A stretch of DNA of 64,000 nt from Flexilinea flocculi (GTDB taxonomy: Bacteria; Chloroflexota; Anaerolineae; Anaerolineales; Anaerolineaceae), in NCBI RefSeq assembly GCF_001192795.1, contig NZ_DF968179.1, positions 62,001 through 126,000 on the forward strand, read 5' to 3'. The notes under the pieces are model-generated. The model made no database searches, had not been told where the DNA came from, and saw only the letters and a list, made by a program, of their open reading frames with translations. Numbering within the stretch: the first letter of the stretch is position 1; every line of letters starts with the position of its first letter. Both the position numbers and the translations under genes were made by a program. Of this stretch, positions 6,934-57,468 are shown piece after piece.

Positions 6934-7053
6934 TGCGATTCGAACTATGAATAGAATCCCGATTGATCTGATGGTTTTGCGCTTTGCGCAAAACCATCAG
7001 ATCATCAAATTTCCTCTCTTTATTCGAACGGTTAATCCAAATTTCGAATCGCT
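6934..7053. repeat. Dispersed palindromic element, copy 2
   Basis: The ends are GCGATTCGAACTATG and AAATTTCGAATCGC. The central stem is a perfect 18 bp, 6965-6982 pairing with 6986-7003, with loop TTT. The tip is GGTTTTGCGC/GCGCAAAACC. The rest of the pyrH-tsf spacer (7054-7276) shows only a small GCGGATT/AATCCGC hairpin near 7082-7101 and a degenerate element end near 7205-7255. Confidence 0.9.
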
Positions 7054-14450: not shown

Positions 14451-14570
14451 ACAGATTTAAAATCGAGACCTGTCTATTGAATGAATCAAAAAACAGGTTG
14501 TTCTCATGGTTTTGCGCAACGTGCAAAACCATGAGAACATTAAGAATTCTTTTTATATTTCGAATTACTG
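14451..14570. repeat. Dispersed palindromic element overlapping the glmU stop
   Basis: The central stem is 14499-14517 pairing with 14521-14539 (19 bp, one wobble). The right end, ATATTTCGAATTACTG, runs into the glmU reading frame and supplies its stop codon at 14565-14567. The left end is degenerate. Confidence 0.8.
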
Positions 14571-43042: not shown

Positions 43043-43165
43043 CAGCAACTCGCAATATGGATTGATTTTTTGAATCAACCAAGAAAATTTGTTGTTTTTA
43101 TGGTTTTACGTGAAGCGCAAAACCATAAGAACAACGATTAATTCTCTTCATATTATGATTTACTG
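43043..43165. repeat. Dispersed palindromic element upstream of the DUF1980 gene
   Basis: Ends CAGCAACTCGCAATATGG and CATATTATGATTTACTG bound 123 bp. The stem 43091-43111 pairs with 43115-43135 (21 bp with two wobbles and one mismatch). Confidence 0.88.
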
Positions 43166-43679
43166 TTTTTGCTAAGCTAAAACATCCATTTGAATCGCTT
43201 CAGATTTATGACAAACTATCGATTTGCCTGATAAATTGAATTCAGCATCAATTTTCCAGGTATTCTCAGATCTGAAAGCGATTGCAATTCAGTACGAGTA
43301 TTACTCGGTAATTAGTTTGATTATACAATATCGTACCGGTCATTTTGATCAATTTGCGTTTTGCTATGATAGAGAAAAGTGCCCATTCGCCCATGAATAT
43401 TCTGGACTAACAGTGATGCGAAATAATTCATCCGGTGACAGGGACAGCGAATCGGCTTTTTGAAATGCTGCTGTTACTGTAGTTACAACCTTATAAAAAC
43501 TCTTATAATCAATAACAGGAAGGAATTTCGATAATTTTTTAAGAATATCAACGATTCGAAATAAGTGAAGAATGTAATTCTGATTTCTTTTATATGCAGA
43601 ACTCAAAAAATCGATTAAAAGTTTTCTCTACAAATTCGAAAAGAAATTGATAATTTTGTATCGCTTTGGAAATACTGAC

Positions 43680-43803
43680 CCGCAATTTGAAATATGAAAA
43701 GAATTCTATGTTGTTCTTATGGATTTTAAGCTTCATGCGAAACCAAAAGATCAATAAGTTTTCTTGATTGATTCGGAAAGTCAATCGAAATTTCAAATCA
43801 CAG
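43680..43803. repeat. Dispersed palindromic element with flanking direct repeats
   Basis: CCGCAATTTGAAATATG and CGAAATTTCAAATCACAG bound 124 bp. It is flanked by AATACTGAC (43671-43679) and AATAATGAC (43804-43812). The centre is degenerate. In the 907-bp spacer 42996-43902 I see only this copy, the one at 43043 and unsupported small ORFs. Confidence 0.82.
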
Positions 43804-43902
43804 AATAATGACTCATTTGTTTGAATATCTGTTCAAGGTTACAATTCAGAAGAAAAACTGGTAATAATATAATGAGGAACAATCGAACTGTCTGGAATAC
43901 CT

Positions 43903-44748
43903 ATGGGTAATCGGCATCTGGTTATTTCTGATATTCATGAAAATCATGAAGCGATTATGCGATTGATTCTTAAAGCCAGGAAAATACCCGGAGGTTTTTG
44001 CGATATATGGTTTTTGGGTGATTTTTTTGGTCATTCTGAAGATGCCGACGGGAAAAATCATCTGACGCAAAATAGTTTATTAACCATTGAGGATTTGTTT
44101 CAACTGCCATTATATTGTGTATTCGGGAATTGGGAATATTGGCTGGCGCATCCGGAGAATGATGAAGTCAATGACGGGCAACGCGGTAATAGCAATGCTT
44201 TGGGGGAACGACGGGAAATCCTGAAGCGCACAAAAACTCACCTTTTACAGCGTCTGATGCGATATTCAATTCTCGAATTACCCGAAACGAGGCCGGAGTT
44301 TACATTGTTTCACGGTTGCAGTTTTTCATGTCATGATACGGTAGCTTACCATGCCGATCCTTGGGAGAGTTATATTAATCCACATGATCTGAATATTGTG
44401 ACAAGAAATCTTTTTGGAAATGCAGATCATCTGAAAACTCCTCATTTTCTGTTTGGTCACACGCACATCCCCGGTTTTTTTGTTTATTCAAAAACATCGT
44501 TTGTAAATATGTGGAGAATATTCAGTCCGGAAATGGCAAAAAAACCGATCTATTACGGGAACGAAAACCAGCGGTTTGGTATCAATCCTGGAAGCGCGGG
44601 TATCACCCAGGTGAATTTTCCAAGGACTGCCATCATTCTGGATACAAAAGAGAAAACTTTTCAATATATTGTGGATCATGGAGATCCCATGAGAATAAAC
44701 CGGAACTTCTTTTTAACTTCGCTGTCGATGAGAAATCGTCAGCGTTGA
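43903..44748 (+). CDS. Calcineurin-like metallophosphoesterase
   Basis: This 281-residue protein has the two-metal phosphoesterase motifs in order: 'ISDIHENHEA' (about 8-17), 'WFLGDFFGHSED', 'VFGNWEYW' and 'LFGHTHIPG'. The third motif has Trp in place of the usual His of GNH(D/E), a variation also tolerated in YfcE-type members (which have GNCD). It is cytosolic. It begins a tight three-gene unit, 29 bp before the kinase-like gene, so it may act as phosphatase counterpart of that protein. Its substrate is unknown. Confidence 0.85.
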   Translation: MGNRHLVISDIHENHEAIMRLILKARKIPGGFCDIWFLGDFFGHSEDADGKNHLTQNSLLTIEDLFQLPLYCVFGNWEYWLAHPENDEVNDGQRGNSNALGERREILKRTKTHLLQRLMRYSILELPETRPEFTLFHGCSFSCHDTVAYHADPWESYINPHDLNIVTRNLFGNADHLKTPHFLFGHTHIPGFFVYSKTSFVNMWRIFSPEMAKKPIYYGNENQRFGINPGSAGITQVNFPRTAIILDTKEKTFQYIVDHGDPMRINRNFFLTSLSMRNRQR

Positions 44749-44777
44749 GGACAAAAGATTCAGGTTTTGGAGGGAAT

Positions 44778-47700
44778 ATGGAACGAACAATTTTGGATCA
44801 ATTTGCAGAACAAATTCATTCTGTAAAGATTCGCAATAAGATACTTCCATTGACATATACCGGTGTAAAAAATGGCGGCGGATTTACCGCAGCTTTTGAA
44901 TTTGAAAATTCAGAAACCAAAGAAAAGTATTATATAAAATTTACAGAAGTCCGTGATGATTCATCGAATGAGGTCGCTGTTCTAACCAAAGCGGCTCAGT
45001 TATTTCGTAATGAAGTCCTGATCGAACCAGATCCGCTGAAAAGGATGAATTATGTCCCTGTTCCTGAAATATTAACGGATGATCCTGAGAATTTTAATCT
45101 TGAATTTATTCGAATTTTTGATCGGGGTCGGTATCATATTCAAATTCAGACTTCTGGTGAAGGCGACCATTGTGAAACCAAACTGCCTGATCAATTACAA
45201 GGAAGAATTGCGATCGCGCTGCAGTTCGCAAAACTATTGCGAACTTGTGCAAAAAATAAAATCGCCTATGTCGATGTCAAACCATTGGAACATTTATTCT
45301 GGATAGAAAAAGAAAACCGGGTTCAGATTACCTTGATCGACTGGGGAATTTCCAGAGCAAACGCATCTGTTTTCTTATTGTCTGAAGACCTGAGAAAATT
45401 CTGCCTTTACCTGCCGGAGATTATCTATGGCAGAAAAATGCTGGAACTAACGAATAAGGGAAAATTTGAATATCCGATTCAAAAAGAAAACGACAGCATT
45501 TTGATTCGAATGCTTGGCCGTCTCAGTTTTGCTGCAAACTTGCCGCCTCTGAGTCAAAAATATGCGGTTTTGGTTGGTGAACAATTATCTGGCGCTGTGA
45601 GCGAAATCCGGATTCAAAATCGCTGTGTGGAAGTTTGGGATGAAGTCATCGATGTTTTGGATACTGCTTACGATGCATCGAAGACGAAGTCGGTCATTAT
45701 GTCTGACTGGGAGAGTCTGAAAAAGAAAGCAGAGGAATTGATTCAGAAGGAAGGAGAGATGTTCCTTGGAAAAGATTTTTTCAAAATTATGGAATCTCGT
45801 CTCACTTCGTTGGCTTCCTATCCATCATGGTTGATTCCTGAAATTCGTTTTATTCAAACATGGTTTGGAAAGATCGATTTTGTTCCTCATCGCGGTTTTG
45901 ACCTTTGTGTTCAGTGTTGTATCAATGATCAGCCACAGCAATTTGAGTTGGAATTTAATAAAATTTCGGAACTGATTCTTGCAAAATTGGAGAAAAACAC
46001 ATCCAATCCGGAGCTGACTGCATTGTTGAAGGAAAATATCGAACAAGTCCGCCATGTAATTCAAGCCTGGATCATTATTCATGATCTGAACAACGGCAAT
46101 CTTTCAGACGAAGATTTCCATATCAAATTCAGTTCTTCCGTTTTAAGGGTCATCGATCCTATTCTGGCTGACGCATATAAAAAAAAGACCAGACAAAATC
46201 GTGAGAAAAAAACAAACATCCTTCCGCCTGACGCAGAATTCAATGAGAACCTGTCTGGGGACGCGGATGTTGCAACCCGGCTTTCAAGCAAACTGGAAAC
46301 AAAACCTGATCTTGCGAATCGTATTTATACGCTGGTTGCATCTTTTGGAAGCTCGGACCTTGCATCCGATCGATGGGGATTTGGTTTCATTCAAGAATTA
46401 GACTCCATTTTACAGATTACTCAAGAAACAAAAGCATATGCAGAAGAAAAGCAGTTAGAGCCAATACTTGAATCGATGGTTCAAGAGATTCAAGAATGGA
46501 CGGAAAAAATCGGACCACAAACATTCATTGCAGCGGATGAGGTTCTGCATCATGTGAACTGGATAACCACGCTACCGCAAAACATTTTAAATTCGAAGAT
46601 TATTAAAAGAACTGAAAAGATTGAAATCGGTTCGAAAATTAAAAACGAATTGGATCAATGTATTCAGAAACTGACTGAAGCAGGTGTTGTAGTCTCTCAG
46701 GAAGTCTTTGACAGAATTAGCGATAAGCTGATCAGAATCAAGGGTCTGAGAAAAAAGTTGGATTCAGATAATCTTTTCCGTTTGCGCAATATGATCGAAA
46801 ATGGTGATTATAAAAATGCGAATCAGATCATTGATGAGCATTATATGGAGAATCCTCCTTTATATGATCGTATTCGCGAGGAAATTCTCAGCCGGCAGAA
46901 AGATGATGAGGATAAAAAATCAATTGCATTGATTAATGCGGTTTTGACGGATTTATCCGGCAATAGCGATTATTCTGAAACTGGGAAATATTTAAAAAAC
47001 CAGCAAAATGTCCCAATCGTTCAACAAAAGATTTATGAATTTCGTCAAAAGAATATCCAATTATTTGATATTCAGGATGAACTAATTCGAACGAAGAGCA
47101 TCGCACATGACAGTAAGAAGTCACTTTTTGGCGTCAAACAAAACACAGGAATCATTCTCTTTTTGCTGATTCTGGTAATTCTTTTTTCAATCGGAACACT
47201 GACAGTGATTTTAGCGAAGAATTTTTCTGTTGCCCAAAATATCGCCAAGGTTGAAAAGAACCTGAACAGTTTTCAGGAAACCTATCTGGCATATGCCAAT
47301 GCGACAGATCTGCCGACAATGACGGCTATTCCAGTAACGCCAACAGTCCCAGCTGCAACACCGACATCAACCGTTATCCCGACGGTGATTCCGACAGCAG
47401 ATATCAGTGTGGGCTCAGTAACTTCCGTTGCTCTCAGCCCAGCTGATGAACATCTGCAAGCATTATTAGGAAAGAAAGTACTTTTCGATCTGAATGGAAA
47501 TGTGAGCCTTTTTGCAGATGAGGCAATGACTCCGGAAAGACAACTGGGAACTGTCATTAATTTTGTGCAGGGCATGAATGGCGTATTGGTAAATTACAAC
47601 GATAAAGCAGTTCATTTGCAGTCAACCTTTAATATCGGACGAAGTCAGATTTCCATCAGCACCTATAAGAACGTCAGTCGATCCACCAATATTCGTATGT

Positions 47701-47861
47701 TTTCCGATGTCCCATCTGCTACGACTCCAGTATTCATTTCGCAAATTGAATTCGTTTTAGTCGAACCCGCTTCAGCTTGCACCAGTGGAAACCAGGAGTT
47801 TTGTCACGGTCTCATTTCATTTTGGGTATCTCGAGATCAAATTGAGTCCTCTATCAAATGA
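44778..47861 (+). CDS. Kinase-like transmembrane protein with extracellular C-terminal domain
   Basis: I start it at ATG 44778 (GGAGGG precedes), giving 1027 residues; a longer frame would overlap the phosphoesterase gene out of frame. Residues 20-260 look like an atypical protein kinase: Lys54 in 'YYIKF' (beta-3), Glu65 (helix C), the catalytic loop 'YVDVKPLEH' with Asp166 and Lys168, and 'LIDWG' (Asp188) for DFG. The usual Asn of HRDxKxxN is not evident. A long helical region follows (about 300-780), then a membrane helix (about 790-812), a Thr/Pro-rich linker and an external beta-rich domain (about 895-1027). No PASTA or FHA domains are seen. Activity is unproven. Confidence 0.72.
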   Translation: MERTILDQFAEQIHSVKIRNKILPLTYTGVKNGGGFTAAFEFENSETKEKYYIKFTEVRDDSSNEVAVLTKAAQLFRNEVLIEPDPLKRMNYVPVPEILTDDPENFNLEFIRIFDRGRYHIQIQTSGEGDHCETKLPDQLQGRIAIALQFAKLLRTCAKNKIAYVDVKPLEHLFWIEKENRVQITLIDWGISRANASVFLLSEDLRKFCLYLPEIIYGRKMLELTNKGKFEYPIQKENDSILIRMLGRLSFAANLPPLSQKYAVLVGEQLSGAVSEIRIQNRCVEVWDEVIDVLDTAYDASKTKSVIMSDWESLKKKAEELIQKEGEMFLGKDFFKIMESRLTSLASYPSWLIPEIRFIQTWFGKIDFVPHRGFDLCVQCCINDQPQQFELEFNKISELILAKLEKNTSNPELTALLKENIEQVRHVIQAWIIIHDLNNGNLSDEDFHIKFSSSVLRVIDPILADAYKKKTRQNREKKTNILPPDAEFNENLSGDADVATRLSSKLETKPDLANRIYTLVASFGSSDLASDRWGFGFIQELDSILQITQETKAYAEEKQLEPILESMVQEIQEWTEKIGPQTFIAADEVLHHVNWITTLPQNILNSKIIKRTEKIEIGSKIKNELDQCIQKLTEAGVVVSQEVFDRISDKLIRIKGLRKKLDSDNLFRLRNMIENGDYKNANQIIDEHYMENPPLYDRIREEILSRQKDDEDKKSIALINAVLTDLSGNSDYSETGKYLKNQQNVPIVQQKIYEFRQKNIQLFDIQDELIRTKSIAHDSKKSLFGVKQNTGIILFLLILVILFSIGTLTVILAKNFSVAQNIAKVEKNLNSFQETYLAYANATDLPTMTAIPVTPTVPAATPTSTVIPTVIPTADISVGSVTSVALSPADEHLQALLGKKVLFDLNGNVSLFADEAMTPERQLGTVINFVQGMNGVLVNYNDKAVHLQSTFNIGRSQISISTYKNVSRSTNIRMFSDVPSATTPVFISQIEFVLVEPASACTSGNQEFCHGLISFWVSRDQIESSIK

Positions 47862-47888
47862 TCGCTATGGATTAAGGAATTATTAAGA

Positions 47889-50800
47889 ATGAGCGTCCTT
47901 ATGGAAAGTGATTCACTCATCACAAAAATCACTCAGTTGATTCTTAATTGGCAATTGCGTGAGGCGTCTGCTTTTATTGATACACAACAAAATGTATTAT
48001 CCGTAAAAGATATTTTTGCGATGCGTAATTTGCTGGATCAATATTTGGAGTGGGAAAATGCGTTTTCGGAAATAATTGCAAAAATCGATTCTGATCCGGC
48101 AGCTGCGCAGTATATGTTGAACCAAATTCCTGAGGAAATTCGCATTACGTATCCGCAGATCAAATCGATTTATTCATCCATGGAGTTGACAAAAGACAAA
48201 CAGCAAATCGATGCGGCTTTAAAAAAATGTGATGAAGCTTATGAATCGTTGCTCCATGAGCTGAATGAAAAAAAAGCGAAAGCGTTAATCGAAGAAGCCA
48301 AGCGAATTTTCCCCAATTGGGATCGAAATAATGAGTTAAGAGAACGAATAAATAACATTCAGGAACTGCATGAAAAACTGGCAAGGGGACTGCAAATTCA
48401 AACGGAGGTCAGCGCTTTGCGAGAAAAAGGTGGCCAGTCTGCTTATCAAAAAGCAATGTCCCTCATTAATGAATATACATCGCTCGGATTGGAAAATGTA
48501 GGAATCGCATTATTTGATGTCGCTGCTGAACGCGACCATTTGCTGCAAATGATCACCCGGGCTGAGGGAAAAAGCTGGTCTCATCGGCTGACTATAACTT
48601 CAGAGTCAGAAGAGATTTTAAGATTAGAACAATCCATTCATTCTCTGGAAGATGCCGAAAGCAAAAATCTGCGTGTCCTGTTTAACAATAACGCAAGATT
48701 ATTAAACCTTCTGACGAAAGAAAAAAGTGAAACAGAATCGGATTCTGAAAAAAGTATTCAATTAGGGATTCGAATCGAAGAATTAAGAAAAAATAACCAG
48801 CAAATCGAAACGGATATTCGTACGGAGGTCGGAAAACGATCGATGGAATACTGTACACTTGCCCAGGCGGCGTTGAAAGCCGGGGAGTTGTCTACTGCAG
48901 AAATTAATATCCGACTGGCAAAAGAAACCGGGAAATCTGCAGATCCATTCGATCCAGATGAATTTTTAGGCGATATTGATCTGCCTACATCTGTATTGGA
49001 TTCCATTGATCAACTTGAAGAAACGTTAAAAAGGGTTTCTGTTGTACGAAATGAGGTGGAAGAGAAACTGCGAAATATCCGGGAGCAATTCAGCGCGGAA
49101 GAAAACATTACTTTAAATAACCTCTCTTACTGGATTTCCGTCATTGAGGAATGCTTTGAAAAAGATCCCATTACACCTGGTCTATCTCAATTTCGCACTG
49201 AAATAAACAATCGCTATCAATCTGTTCGCACGTACGCCTTTGAAAAAGGCATCCGTGAAATTGACCGGTCCATTAAAAATGGCAAGTTTACGGACGCAAA
49301 AATTAAACTGGATTTTTTAATTGCATCGTTTCCAGATGATCAGGAAAAAGAACAACTCACGAAACGGCTTAATAAAATCAGCGTTTTAGAAAAAATTTTT
49401 GACCAAATTGATGGTTTACAAAAACAAATTGCCGAGTTGTATCACTCAACGACTGAAAAACTGGAATCTGATGCAGAACATACTGGACAGCTTGAATCTT
49501 ATTATCAGAAGATTCAAGCAATTTATAAAAAATACCATTTACAAGAGCCAAAAGAACTTGAAATTAACCGGTTTAATCAGCTCCGTATCTTTGATAAAAT
49601 CGGCGAGTATGAATCAGAAATAAAAATTGTTAAAAACAGTATCGCCAATGGGATATTGACAGCAGAAAGCCTCTCAGCTGCTGAAAAAATCGAAATATCC
49701 GATCTCTATTCCGTTGAGACGGCTCGCGATCTGTTAGCCAGATTCTGGTTCTTTTGTGCAAAAGTGGATAATAACCGGGAAAATTTACCGCGATATCTGG
49801 CGAAAGCGGAACGAATTGCTGAAGATTGCAACGATTCAGCGCTGCATCAGGAAATCAGCGCGTTTCGAATAACGATGAATGAAAAAAATGAAGAAGGAAA
49901 ACGAGTCAATTTACTTCTTGAAACATTGAATCAATTCTGGAAGGAGAAAACTTTTTTAGCTGGAATTGACTATATATCGAAAAATGTCACCGTAGAAGAC
50001 CGGAAAAATCCCCAGATTTTTCAGTTGGTTGACCGGATTGAACAGGCATATCGTTTTAATTTATCGGAAGAATTGCTGAAATCTGCTAAAGAAGCATTTT
50101 CTCACGGCGATTATCAGAAAGCAGAAGAAGACATTTCGCGAAGCCTGGATTATTTATATTCTGTTGAGGGTGCTCAGCTCCAAAAAACGATTAACAGTAT
50201 CCAGCAATTTGAAGAGAACAATCTGAAAGAGATTGAAAACTTTCTTAATCAGGATGTTTTTCACGATGGTGAAATCGACGAATTGGCTGCTGAAGAAATT
50301 CGTTACATTGCTGATCGCATTGATTCGATGGAAAAATCCCAAATGGTAGACCGTCGGATACGATCCAGAATCGGAACTGCAAAAAACCGGATCATCAGAA
50401 TAAAAAATCAGGAAACCGGTACTTTTAACAATTTGCGTCAGCAATTTGAGAATGCTCTGATGCTGGGCGAGGAGGGATTGGAACAGGCAGAGTCCGTGTT
50501 GAAAGATATGGATTCCCGCATCTGGATTGAAAACCGAAGTTCAGAAATACTATCTCTGAAAATGAAGTTGGATGAGATCAAGAATATTCTCAAAGCATTG
50601 CGCATTGTGATTAACCAATCGGATCATTATTTACATCAGGGGGATTTTCGTTCCGCGGAAAGAATTCTTGCAGCATTTCATGCAGACGCAAAACAAAAAT
50701 GGCCAGATTGGCTGCTGATCCTTAAAGAAAATGCGGAATTTCGTATCCGCGAGCTGCATGAAAAATATCAGCAGGTTCAATCGAGATTTGAAAAAAAGGA

Positions 50801-51962
50801 TTCAAATACCGGTGAGGTTATCGATGAGGCAAACCGGATTTTGGATCCTAAATCTACAGATGCTGTTCAAAGTTTCCGTTTGACAACAGAACTTGGTCAA
50901 TATAAAACAATTTTAGAACGGGATATTCGGGTTGATTCTGAGCAAAATCCTTATATGATTGGCATTAATTATCTGCTGGATGTTCTGAAATGGAATGAAA
51001 TCGCAGTAGAAGCAGTCTCCGGAATGGGAAACCATCGAGAAGGGATCTCTTTGGATGCATTATATGGTATTCGGAAAGCCGGACGGGATTTATTTGATCG
51101 AATGCCTCCTGCGCTGGTTGGAATTCAACCCAGTTTTGCTGAACGGAATAAATGGCTGGAAGAAAGAACACGGGTACGGCAGCTCTTGTTGGAATTGGAG
51201 GGGACACAGAAAAAAACAGCGAATCGTCCATCAGAACGACAATCAATCATTCGCCGGGATATTCAGGAACTTGAGAAATTATCACTGTTGCCAAATGAAG
51301 AGGAATCGCTCTCGCGAATAAAAAAAATCCAGGAAAATCGAAAAAAACGGAAAGGTTGTCTTTTCTCTGGTATTCTCTTTTTCGTTCTTGCGCTTGCAGG
51401 GCTGTATCTCGCTTCACCGATATTGATTCCATACTTAACTCCTGAACCGACGATTTCATATACTCCCTCGATGACATTCACACCTAGCCTGACAGCTTCA
51501 CCTACCATGACCATGACAGCGACGCTGACTGCAACACCTACGTTGACACCGACAGCGACATTTACTCATACGCCGACAGCAACACCAATGGGATTGACCG
51601 GCGTTATACGCAACCATCTGATTGGTGTATATGAACTTCCTGATGGCAATACGAAAATGCTCAGCAACGGGTATTTAGAACCTGGGTCGGAAGTGGAAAT
51701 AATCCGCTATTGTGAATCCGCAGTGATCAAAGGTGAATATTGGGCACTGATTTTTTATCCGTCTCAGGACAGGAATACAGGCTGGATTCGGATCCGTTTG
51801 CCTGATTCGCTGGATTATGTCTTATTATCAGATACCGGCCAGCCTTCTTTAGAAGTACTGAATGATAATCCGGCATTGAAGATGACTTGTCCGCTGAAAT
51901 CCTATATCCGGATGCCGGGAGACCCGACAATCACTCCGACTGTTTCGCAGCAAGAAGATTGA
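47889..51962 (+). CDS. Giant coiled-coil/helical-repeat membrane protein with external C-terminal domain
   Basis: This 1357-residue protein has no recognised enzyme domain. Residues ~1-1150 are almost entirely helical and charged, in repeated units of 60-100 residues with phrases such as 'LRNIREQFS', 'GKFTDAKIKLDFLIASFP' and 'GDYQKAEEDISRSLDYL', recalling TPR- or spectrin-like scaffolds. A membrane helix (about 1157-1180) follows, then a Thr/Pro linker (about 1184-1235) with 'TPTLTPTATFTHTPTATP' and an SH3-like external domain containing 'PGSEVEIIRYCESAVIKGEYW' region. It repeats the overall plan of the preceding kinase-like protein (large cytosolic part, one helix, TP linker, small outer domain). 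Role unknown; a scaffold is inferred. Confidence 0.8.
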   Translation: MSVLMESDSLITKITQLILNWQLREASAFIDTQQNVLSVKDIFAMRNLLDQYLEWENAFSEIIAKIDSDPAAAQYMLNQIPEEIRITYPQIKSIYSSMELTKDKQQIDAALKKCDEAYESLLHELNEKKAKALIEEAKRIFPNWDRNNELRERINNIQELHEKLARGLQIQTEVSALREKGGQSAYQKAMSLINEYTSLGLENVGIALFDVAAERDHLLQMITRAEGKSWSHRLTITSESEEILRLEQSIHSLEDAESKNLRVLFNNNARLLNLLTKEKSETESDSEKSIQLGIRIEELRKNNQQIETDIRTEVGKRSMEYCTLAQAALKAGELSTAEINIRLAKETGKSADPFDPDEFLGDIDLPTSVLDSIDQLEETLKRVSVVRNEVEEKLRNIREQFSAEENITLNNLSYWISVIEECFEKDPITPGLSQFRTEINNRYQSVRTYAFEKGIREIDRSIKNGKFTDAKIKLDFLIASFPDDQEKEQLTKRLNKISVLEKIFDQIDGLQKQIAELYHSTTEKLESDAEHTGQLESYYQKIQAIYKKYHLQEPKELEINRFNQLRIFDKIGEYESEIKIVKNSIANGILTAESLSAAEKIEISDLYSVETARDLLARFWFFCAKVDNNRENLPRYLAKAERIAEDCNDSALHQEISAFRITMNEKNEEGKRVNLLLETLNQFWKEKTFLAGIDYISKNVTVEDRKNPQIFQLVDRIEQAYRFNLSEELLKSAKEAFSHGDYQKAEEDISRSLDYLYSVEGAQLQKTINSIQQFEENNLKEIENFLNQDVFHDGEIDELAAEEIRYIADRIDSMEKSQMVDRRIRSRIGTAKNRIIRIKNQETGTFNNLRQQFENALMLGEEGLEQAESVLKDMDSRIWIENRSSEILSLKMKLDEIKNILKALRIVINQSDHYLHQGDFRSAERILAAFHADAKQKWPDWLLILKENAEFRIRELHEKYQQVQSRFEKKDSNTGEVIDEANRILDPKSTDAVQSFRLTTELGQYKTILERDIRVDSEQNPYMIGINYLLDVLKWNEIAVEAVSGMGNHREGISLDALYGIRKAGRDLFDRMPPALVGIQPSFAERNKWLEERTRVRQLLLELEGTQKKTANRPSERQSIIRRDIQELEKLSLLPNEEESLSRIKKIQENRKKRKGCLFSGILFFVLALAGLYLASPILIPYLTPEPTISYTPSMTFTPSLTASPTMTMTATLTATPTLTPTATFTHTPTATPMGLTGVIRNHLIGVYELPDGNTKMLSNGYLEPGSEVEIIRYCESAVIKGEYWALIFYPSQDRNTGWIRIRLPDSLDYVLLSDTGQPSLEVLNDNPALKMTCPLKSYIRMPGDPTITPTVSQQED

Positions 51963-51969
51963 ATCTGGG

Positions 51970-52094
51970 CCAGCAATTCGAAATATGGATTAGCTTTTTG
52001 AATTCATCAAGAAAATTTGTAGTCCTTATGGTTTTACGCGAAGCGCAAAACCATAAGGACTACAAAGAATACTTTTCATATTTCGAATGACTGG
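51970..52094. repeat. Best-preserved dispersed element, with a target duplication
   Basis: CCAGCAATTCGAAATATGG and CATATTTCGAATGACTGG bound 125 bp. ATCTGGG occurs directly outside both ends (51963-51969 and 52095-52101). The stem 52017-52039 pairs with 52043-52065 (23 bp, one mismatch, loop GAA). Confidence 0.92.
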
Positions 52095-56569: not shown

Positions 56570-57058
56570 TTATCGATCAAATATAAGATCAATAGGCTTT
56601 ATCGTGTCAGTGGTAATTTTTATGGATAAAAACTGATGATCTGCGATTTCTTCTGATGGAATCAGGATGATTTTCTGGTTCCATGGAGATTGAATCATCT
56701 TGTCTGCCTGATACGCCCCAATTTCAACGCTCACTTCTTCTTTTGAGATCGGATCTGGAGAGATGCTTTGAATTTTTCCTTCTTTTTCATCAATTTTGAC
56801 GACCATACCGGGTGATAATGATTGCGCCTCTTCAACCGGAAGAAAACAAACGATACCATCCTCTGAAAAAATACCTTGGGCTTGAACCACAACCGGCAGA
56901 TTCGCAGAAAAAGCCCAAAATATGACCACTACGGCTAAAATCAAAAAAAGGCTGATGATCAGCCAGATACTCGGATTCGGCACCCGTATATAGTCATTTA
57001 ATTGTTCAGGAGAAGCGATGTGATCAAGGCTTTCCTTTCGAAAGAGGTTTTCGTTCAT
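56570..57058 (-). CDS. NHLM-type secretion accessory protein (short HlyD-like)
   Basis: This 162-residue protein has one membrane helix (about 30-52, 'IWLIISLFLILAVVVIFWAF') and a short periplasmic-side beta domain containing 'VVQAQGIFSEDGIVCFLPVEEAQSLSPGMVVKI' region. It resembles the truncated membrane-fusion subunit of NHLM bacteriocin systems and lacks the coiled-coil hairpin of Gram-negative HlyD. The stop is 16 bp before the C39 transporter start. It should couple the exporter to the outside. Confidence 0.88.
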   Translation of the reverse strand: MNENLFRKESLDHIASPEQLNDYIRVPNPSIWLIISLFLILAVVVIFWAFSANLPVVVQAQGIFSEDGIVCFLPVEEAQSLSPGMVVKIDEKEGKIQSISPDPISKEEVSVEIGAYQADKMIQSPWNQKIILIPSEEIADHQFLSIKITTDTIKPIDLIFDR

Positions 57059-57234: not shown

Positions 57235-57468
57235 TTATCCCGTGTATCCATGCGGACAGGTACCGCCGTTTTTCAGAGGACATATCCAGTCTTTATGAAG
57301 AAGACGGTTTGCAGCGGCACAAGCGGTACACCAACTGTTACCTGAGCCGCCGGAAATTGCATCCAACATCGTTTCTGATAATTCTTTATCTTCTATATAA
57401 TCATGAGGGGAAGATTTCGGAAGAGGCAGACTCTTGTTTTCATCGTTTTGATTTTTGAGTATAGGCAT
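57235..57468 (-). CDS. Cys-rich peptide precursor with double-glycine leader
   Basis: I start the gene at ATG 57468 (77 residues); an upstream TTG would add 11 residues. The first 41 residues form an acidic leader ending 'LSETMLDAISGG', a textbook C39 cleavage site. The released peptide would be 36 residues, rich in Gly, Ala and aromatic residues, with cysteines at core positions 6, 9, 22 and 30. Two disulfides or another thiol-based modification would be possible. No LanM, YcaO, radical SAM or other modifying enzyme lies in the window. It sits at the head of the exporter genes on the same strand. A bacteriocin or signalling peptide is the likely function. Confidence 0.8.
   Translation of the reverse strand: MPILKNQNDENKSLPLPKSSPHDYIEDKELSETMLDAISGGSGNSWCTACAAANRLLHKDWICPLKNGGTCPHGYTG

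Follow-up and report, generated by a model that had tools for sequence, protein, structure and literature searches.

A conserved gene trio of Flexilinea flocculi that may encode an envelope-linked kinase module

Hanks-type kinases such as PrkC and PknB combine a cytosolic N-terminal kinase, a single membrane helix and an extracytoplasmic C-terminal domain. Here we describe three adjacent genes of Flexilinea flocculi, the second of which (gene 2) encodes a protein of the same layout, with an N-terminal cytosolic kinase domain, one membrane helix and an outer C-terminal domain. It differs from PrkC/PknB, however, in that no PASTA repeat is matched in Pfam at E values up to 1, in the about 500 mostly helical residues that separate the kinase from the membrane, in its atypical catalytic loop, and in its partner scaffold, which carries a membrane helix of its own. 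EssB/YukC also resembles gene 2, with an N-terminal kinase fold, one membrane segment and an outer domain (PMC12599244), but the catalytic motifs of EssB are degraded (PMC12599244), whereas gene 2 retains the Lys, the Asp-x-Lys and the DFG Asp. Gene 2 has no Pfam match to EssB/YukC, no type VII secretion genes lie nearby, and the neighbours are unrelated. Bacterial pseudokinases with structural or other enzymatic roles have been reviewed, and Chloroflexi are not mentioned there (PMC12599244). As for the first gene (gene 1), the closest described enzymes are the YfcE-type calcineurin-like phosphoesterases (PF12850), with which it shares all metal ligands. The preliminary description of this DNA knew of no described system with this set of genes, and this still stands within the literature that we searched, where no description of such a module was found. 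The trio is a real and conserved gene unit, apparently an undescribed one, for which we infer a function below.

The window, that is, the whole stretch of 64,000 nucleotides that was analysed, comes from a genome of 3.5 Mb in three contigs. Inspection of its open reading frames gives a co-directional unit on the + strand, made of a metallophosphoesterase gene, a kinase-like membrane-protein gene and a scaffold gene:

43845..43873, + strand: sigma-70-like match TTCAGA-17-TATAAT, 30 bp before gene 1, with 10 of 12 consensus positions
43903..44748, + strand: gene 1, calcineurin-like metallophosphoesterase of 281 aa, without membrane segment
44778..47861, + strand: gene 2, kinase-like single-pass membrane protein of 1027 aa, from its reading frame and genus-wide orthologues
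47889..51962, + strand: gene 3, giant membrane-anchored scaffold of 1357 aa, or of 1353 aa with the ATG at 47901 as start

The spacing of 29 bp between genes 1 and 2 and of 27 bp between genes 2 and 3, already noticed before, is confirmed from the reading frames for a gene-3 start at 47889; since relatives align from Met5, translation may instead begin with the ATG at 47901, in which case the second gap would be 39 bp. A GGAGGG precedes the ATG of gene 2. The promoter-like match is to be read with the fact that sigma-70-like sites are no more numerous in the region than in shuffled versions of it, and no RNA family was found in the trio region. Upstream of the trio there is a stretch of 820 bp with no convincing gene in it. 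In this gene-poor stretch, at 43119-43726 of the window, there is a 36-nt inverted repeat (83%), its arms 536 nt apart, which is perhaps a decayed mobile element.

The kinase-like protein is the centre of the unit, and its parts are the following:

44778..45674, + strand: atypical kinase-like domain of gene 2, residues 1-299, from alignments, Foldseek and VIA-align
47151..47207, + strand: transmembrane segment of gene 2, residues 792-810, mean hydropathy 2.98, the sole segment above 1.6
47430..47858, + strand: outer domain of gene 2, residues 885-1027, with two invariant Cys in the alignment

Against the Pfam Pkinase model (PF00069), gene 2 alone scores 13.9 bits, well under the gathering cut-off of 31.7, which is passed by its relatives L094 (32.3) and L125 (37.2). 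An AlphaFold2 model was built on a 13-sequence alignment, with a mean pLDDT of 65 and moderate to low values in the N-lobe. The Foldseek and VIA-align lists obtained with this model are occupied by kinase-domain matches: nearly all the top Foldseek matches listed are protein kinases, as are all of the best 50 rows listed by VIA-align, which gives a Z of 11.5 to JAK2 (221 residues aligned, 4.5 A), where models without a clear match typically reach a best Z of 7-8. A bilobal protein-kinase fold is thus supported by modelling, and the kinase fold proposed in the preliminary description holds, both on structure prediction and on distant relatives that reach the Pfam Pkinase cut-off. The residues that are invariant in gene 2 are K54 (in beta3), E65, D166-x-K168, E171-H172 and D188-W189-G190, the invariance of K54, D166, K168 and D188 being counted over 13 sequences. 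The catalytic loop reads YVDxKPLEHxFW, that is, D-[VI]-K-P-L-E-H where kinases have D-x-K-P-x-N, so that the metal-binding Asn is absent and Glu171-His172 is found in every gene-2 sequence. The DFG motif is DWG, a form which occurs in CK2 as well. Because the metal-binding Asn is replaced by Glu-His, phosphotransfer may be lost or altered in gene 2. This Asn (N171 of PKA) belongs to the ten key residues of the kinase-like superfamily, each of which but one is dispensable in some family (PMC1821047). The kinase domain is followed by the about 500 mostly helical residues, the membrane segment, a Pro/Thr linker and the outer domain. The latter is present in all complete orthologues and is modelled with a pLDDT of about 87; no sequence relative of it was found in the PDB.

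The third gene encodes a second single-pass protein, with the parts below:

47901..51362, + strand: cytosolic part of gene 3, predicted all-helical TPR-like alpha-solenoid, from AlphaFold2 and Foldseek
51372..51428, + strand: transmembrane segment of gene 3, residues 1158-1176 counted from 47901, mean hydropathy 2.49
51444..51590, + strand: Thr/Pro-rich linker of gene 3, from sequence and alignment
51591..51959, + strand: outer domain of gene 3, from alignments; SH3-like by eye only

The AlphaFold2 model of the cytosolic part has a mean pLDDT of 83, about 45 helices and no strands, and its pTM is low, as expected for a long rod. The best Foldseek matches listed include subunits of IFT-A, Ctr9 and SKI3, which are long solenoids in which TPR repeats are prominent. 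Of the giant coiled-coil scaffold of the preliminary description, the helical part of ~1150 residues stands, while the coiled coil itself is rejected on the solenoid model and on the TPR-rich proteins among the top structural matches. The charge around the membrane segment (+4 on the N-side and -1 on the C-side) favours a cytosolic N-terminus. The outer domain has no Pfam match and no significant match in the PDB. Genes 2 and 3 do follow the shared plan that had been suggested for them, each with a single hydrophobic segment, a Thr/Pro linker and a small C-terminal domain, except that the linker and outer domain of gene 3 are missing in five species (the subclade G041/42/45/46/47), where the protein ends about twelve residues past the membrane segment. 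Gene 3 can thus do without its outer domain, whereas gene 2 keeps its own.

The gene in front of these two passes the Metallophos_2 model (PF12850) with an E of 2e-10 and 41.3 bits, against a gathering cut-off of 27, and among solved structures a profile comparison places 3rqz and 3qfm nearest to it. Its metal ligands D10, H12, D40, N76, H137, H186 and H188 are invariant over 8 orthologues. In such phosphoesterases, GNH[DE] is the usual form of the motif; gene 1 has GNWE at this site, and so it departs from the YfcE type by the lack of this His, by its greater length (281 aa), and by its score of 18.1 against the NCBIfam YfcE model, whose cut-off is 56.25.

Conservation was examined in 147 genomes of the same family, of which 14 make up the genus. 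The linkage of the orthologues in other genomes, on which the preliminary description had made its proposal hinge, is found across the genus: the trio lies on one contig, in the same order and on the same strand, in 12 of the 14 genomes (that of the window included), and the remaining two have contig breaks. Gene 2 is present in all 14, with a full-length match in no other of the 147 family genomes. Gene 1 is likewise found at the expected place in 14 of 14, incomplete in two solely from an assembly gap or a contig end, and gene 3 is full length or nearly so in 13, the exception being G048, a genome that is 80% complete and whose contig ends inside gene 2. In the orthologue alignments, gene 2 is 82 to 34% identical to the window protein, and gene 3 is 86 to 35% identical. 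Only short gaps separate the trio genes across the genus, and G037 has a 4-bp overlap of genes 1 and 2. The flanks, in turn, vary: thymidine phosphorylase is found in one clade, glycosyltransferase, EamA or FAD-binding genes in the other, and a gyrase A gene in G037. As genes and order are kept genus-wide down to 34-37% identity and the flanks change, the linkage is not due to chance. All three genes are under purifying selection, with dN/dS values to the nearest species of about 0.13 (gene 1), 0.09 (gene 2) and 0.07 (gene 3). From a reading of the frames, a CTG seems to be the start codon of gene 1 in five species (L056-L058, L060 and L061), where it overlaps the TGA that ends the FAD-binding gene before it. 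The records that match the trio loci are metagenome-assembled genomes named Flexilinea sp., Leptolinea sp., uncultured Anaerolineaceae and uncultured Chloroflexi, several of them from gut samples. When 199-298 genomes of the class were searched with single sequences and with profiles, the only matches to genes 2 and 3 beyond the genus were kinase domains. A contig scan with a single gene-2 protein gave no match; with the gene-2 alignment, it gave 12 named loci.

These distant kinases bring the trio into a wider context. The profile of the gene-2 kinase finds kinase-like domains in another Anaerolineae family (f22), where they are either stand-alone (about 375 aa) or part of giant single proteins (1342-1447 aa), in which the kinase is combined with helices, a single membrane segment and an outer domain, and a search with one protein of the f22 type leads to further genera of the window's own family. 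In g5 and g26, a kinase A (927-972 aa), a kinase B (336-338 aa) and a receptor (605-649 aa) are adjacent, the receptor being built of TPR, a membrane segment, a Thr/Pro linker and a small Cys-containing domain; these modules have no adjacent hydrolase. In g3, kinases A and B form one fused protein (about 1000 aa), and the next gene encodes 575-705 aa; in L125 its product is confirmed to have TPR, a membrane segment and the linker. In the g3 genomes examined (G004, G005 and G006), a short reading frame whose beginning resembles the MBL-fold hydrolase of L125 overlaps the start of the fused kinase by 4 bp, with Pfam Lactamase_B_2 confirmed for G004 and G006 and the G005 copy judged by its sequence start alone. 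The g3 loci, with MBL-fold hydrolase, fused tandem kinase and third gene, lie at 9019-14540 of L125, 6284-12672 of L124 and 6614-12666 of L126, the hydrolase of L126 being called MBL-fold by its sequence start only; just upstream of the g3-type module of G006 (L124) there is a PPK2 polyphosphate kinase. The giant kinase receptors at 4285-13124 of L093 and 9349-17024 of L094 have neighbours of penicillin-binding-protein type, the transpeptidase being a Pfam match in L093 and a sequence look only in L094, and the convergent neighbours in L093 are a metallophosphoesterase and a regulator-like gene. Among the 147 family genomes, kinase A is found in 50 and kinase B in 46, and none of the 14 trio genomes carries either, so that the two module types are mutually exclusive in this set.

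The likeness between the two types of module is first of all that of the kinase loop. Kinases A, B and f22 have D-x-K-x(2,3)-H-x-[FY]-W, with almost always IDW[GN], and the gene-2 kinase fits this pattern too; ordinary kinases of the phylum from the same search have [YF]RDxKPxN...IDFG. Where the metal-binding Asn would be, kinases A and B have His; the giant f22 proteins have Asp or Ala for the Lys of the loop. The uniformity of the A, B and f22 loops is partly due to selection, since those sequences were extracted with the loop pattern, and the searches that first found these kinases were made without it. Kinase A has weak matches to APH and Kdo/WaaP, and by profile it matches CK2 chains. Beyond the loop, the A/B/receptor modules and the f22 proteins have the same plan as the trio, in which a long helical stretch in the cytosol is joined through one membrane segment and a Thr/Pro linker to a small outer domain, and the A/B/receptor modules also have adjacent genes on one strand and, in one genus, a metal hydrolase upstream. 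The A/B modules differ from the trio in having two kinases instead of one, an MBL-fold instead of a calcineurin-like hydrolase, and a receptor of about half the length, which would be the only membrane-bound component, as their kinases have no membrane segment, unlike in the trio. Comparison by hhalign connects the gene-2 kinase to kinase B with a probability of 96.9 and to kinase A with one of 84. The kinase tree groups each type well and sets gene 2 on a very long branch, with a weak placement (80/61) that is not with A/B. When separate parts of gene 3 and the TPR receptors are aligned, the rods reach a probability of 8 and the outer domains one below 1; a high-probability hhalign match between them was rejected, as it was driven by the Thr/Pro linker and disappeared once rod and outer domain were compared apart. 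With an hhalign link, a weak placement in the tree and no demonstrable homology of gene 3 to the receptors, it is better supported to say that the trio works like the A/B modules than that it is a member of them. In our reading, the trio is the form which an undescribed kinase module linked to the envelope has in one lineage. A broader proposal, which we consider possible but doubtful, is that Anaerolineae share such undescribed envelope-linked modules, built around a new kinase-like family (with His, followed by an aromatic residue and Trp, for the Asn, and with DWG/DWN for DFG), in which the kinase is split, fused or membrane-anchored, the hydrolase is exchanged, and the scaffold of the trio genus is enlarged to more than 1100 cytosolic residues.

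As to function, our tentative preference is that the trio forms one membrane signalling module, made of a kinase receptor, a solenoid scaffold and a phosphoesterase that resets it. Gene 2 would be a single-pass receptor, with the atypical kinase domain in the cytosol and the two-Cys domain outside. Gene 3 would offer its cytosolic TPR-like solenoid as a docking scaffold, perhaps also as a substrate, and a Thr/Pro stalk would carry its outer domain in most species. The outer domains of both proteins may sense or hold something in the envelope, and a cue sensed there by that of gene 2 would alter the activity of the kinase on the scaffold or on its cargo. The soluble product of gene 1 would then remove the phosphate, or another product of the kinase, and so reset the module. 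What we infer here is that the three proteins associate, which way the signal travels, that the scaffold is modified and that gene 1 undoes this. Reversal is plausible given the invariant metal ligands of gene 1 and the unrelated metal hydrolase at the same place in another genus, and its best circumstantial support is indeed that two lineages have metal hydrolases of unrelated folds next to the kinase, although g5 and g26 have none adjacent. In favour of the module are the conserved linkage among changing flanks, the kinase fold with its invariant K54, D166, K168 and D188, the invariant metal site of gene 1, the purifying selection on the three genes, and the differently built and mutually exclusive modules of the same family. 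Against it count the replaced Asn, the low Pfam score of gene 2, the low-confidence parts of its kinase model, the five species without the gene-3 outer domain, the hydrolase-free modules of g5 and g26, and the comparisons that join neither gene 3 to the TPR receptors nor, in the tree, the gene-2 kinase to A/B.

The main rival to a signalling module is a pseudokinase scaffold, which we find less probable but serious: gene 2 would be a nucleotide-sensing or assembly fold within a structural scaffold that links envelope and cytoplasm, by a logic similar to that of EssB/YukC, and gene 1 would act elsewhere. The Glu-His that replaces the Asn in all gene-2 sequences and the helix-rich assembly architecture both fit it, and transmembrane bacterial pseudokinases have precedent (PMC12599244), but the invariance of the beta3 Lys, of the catalytic Asp and Lys and of the DFG Asp is unexpected for a dead enzyme. 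It is improbable, in our opinion, that the kinase-like domain performs another chemistry, either the transfer of AMP or glutamate (as in SelO and SidJ) or the phosphorylation of a small molecule, with gene 1 as the matching phosphodiesterase. The altered metal-binding loop of gene 2, the weak APH and Kdo/WaaP matches of its relative kinase A, the GNWE of gene 1 in place of GNH[DE], and the further chemistries reviewed for kinase-fold proteins (PMC12599244) all point this way, but protein kinases are the best structural matches and direct evidence for another chemistry is absent. We give a similarly small chance to gene 1 being an ordinary housekeeping enzyme that shares no more than its transcript with a membrane complex of two proteins. 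Its phosphoesterase type is common and the g5 and g26 versions do without an adjacent hydrolase, but the linkage is kept genus-wide despite the changing flanks, the reading frames overlap or abut in several species, and another genus has an unrelated metal hydrolase at the same position.

Downstream of the trio, on the opposite strand, two NHLM-type exporter genes are found, and the features of this neighbourhood are:

57235-57468, - strand: 77-aa leader-type peptide (...ETMLDAISGG/SGNSWCTACAAANRLLHKDWICPLKNGGTCPHGYTG), upstream of the C39-peptidase NHLM exporters
56570-57058, - strand: 162-aa HlyD-like adaptor, covering 2-78 of 421 of the NHLM secretion-protein model
43098-43128 and 52026-52056, also 6969-6999 and 14504-14534: palindromic repeat TTATGGTTTTRCG...CGYAAAACCATAA, which flanks the trio on both sides

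The leader-type peptide is likely a peptide natural-product precursor, and the adaptor, which matches only the beginning of the model, is short or truncated. No match to the cyclase/lyase domains of class III/IV lanthipeptide synthetases was found in gene 2. The palindromic repeat, with 77 copies in the genome of the window, 76 in G044, one in G049 and none in G037 and G047, is a lineage-specific REP-like element, and its copy at 52019-52063 also scores as a terminator-like hairpin. It is very improbable that the trio is a defence system, as had been suggested among other roles, or a part of the neighbouring export cluster, and a bacteriocin role is not supported either. The trio is indeed directly followed by NHLM-type ABC exporters and a leader-type peptide, but no species other than that of the window and its nearest relative (G044) has the exporter pair next to the trio, which led us to reject the export link. 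Moreover, no PADLOC match and no informative PHROG match were obtained, and the trio is universal in the genus, among varying ordinary neighbours.

Anaerolineae are frequent in anaerobic digesters and also occur in rumen and gut, and, to our knowledge, little is known about how they sense their surroundings. If our reading of the trio as a signalling module is right, it would be a single-copy module kept throughout a genus, and its kinases would directly test whether a His can replace a nearly invariant Asn in the active site of a protein kinase. As sister genera assemble a hydrolase, a kinase and a stalked receptor from different parts, the functional link between the three would also be testable by comparison.
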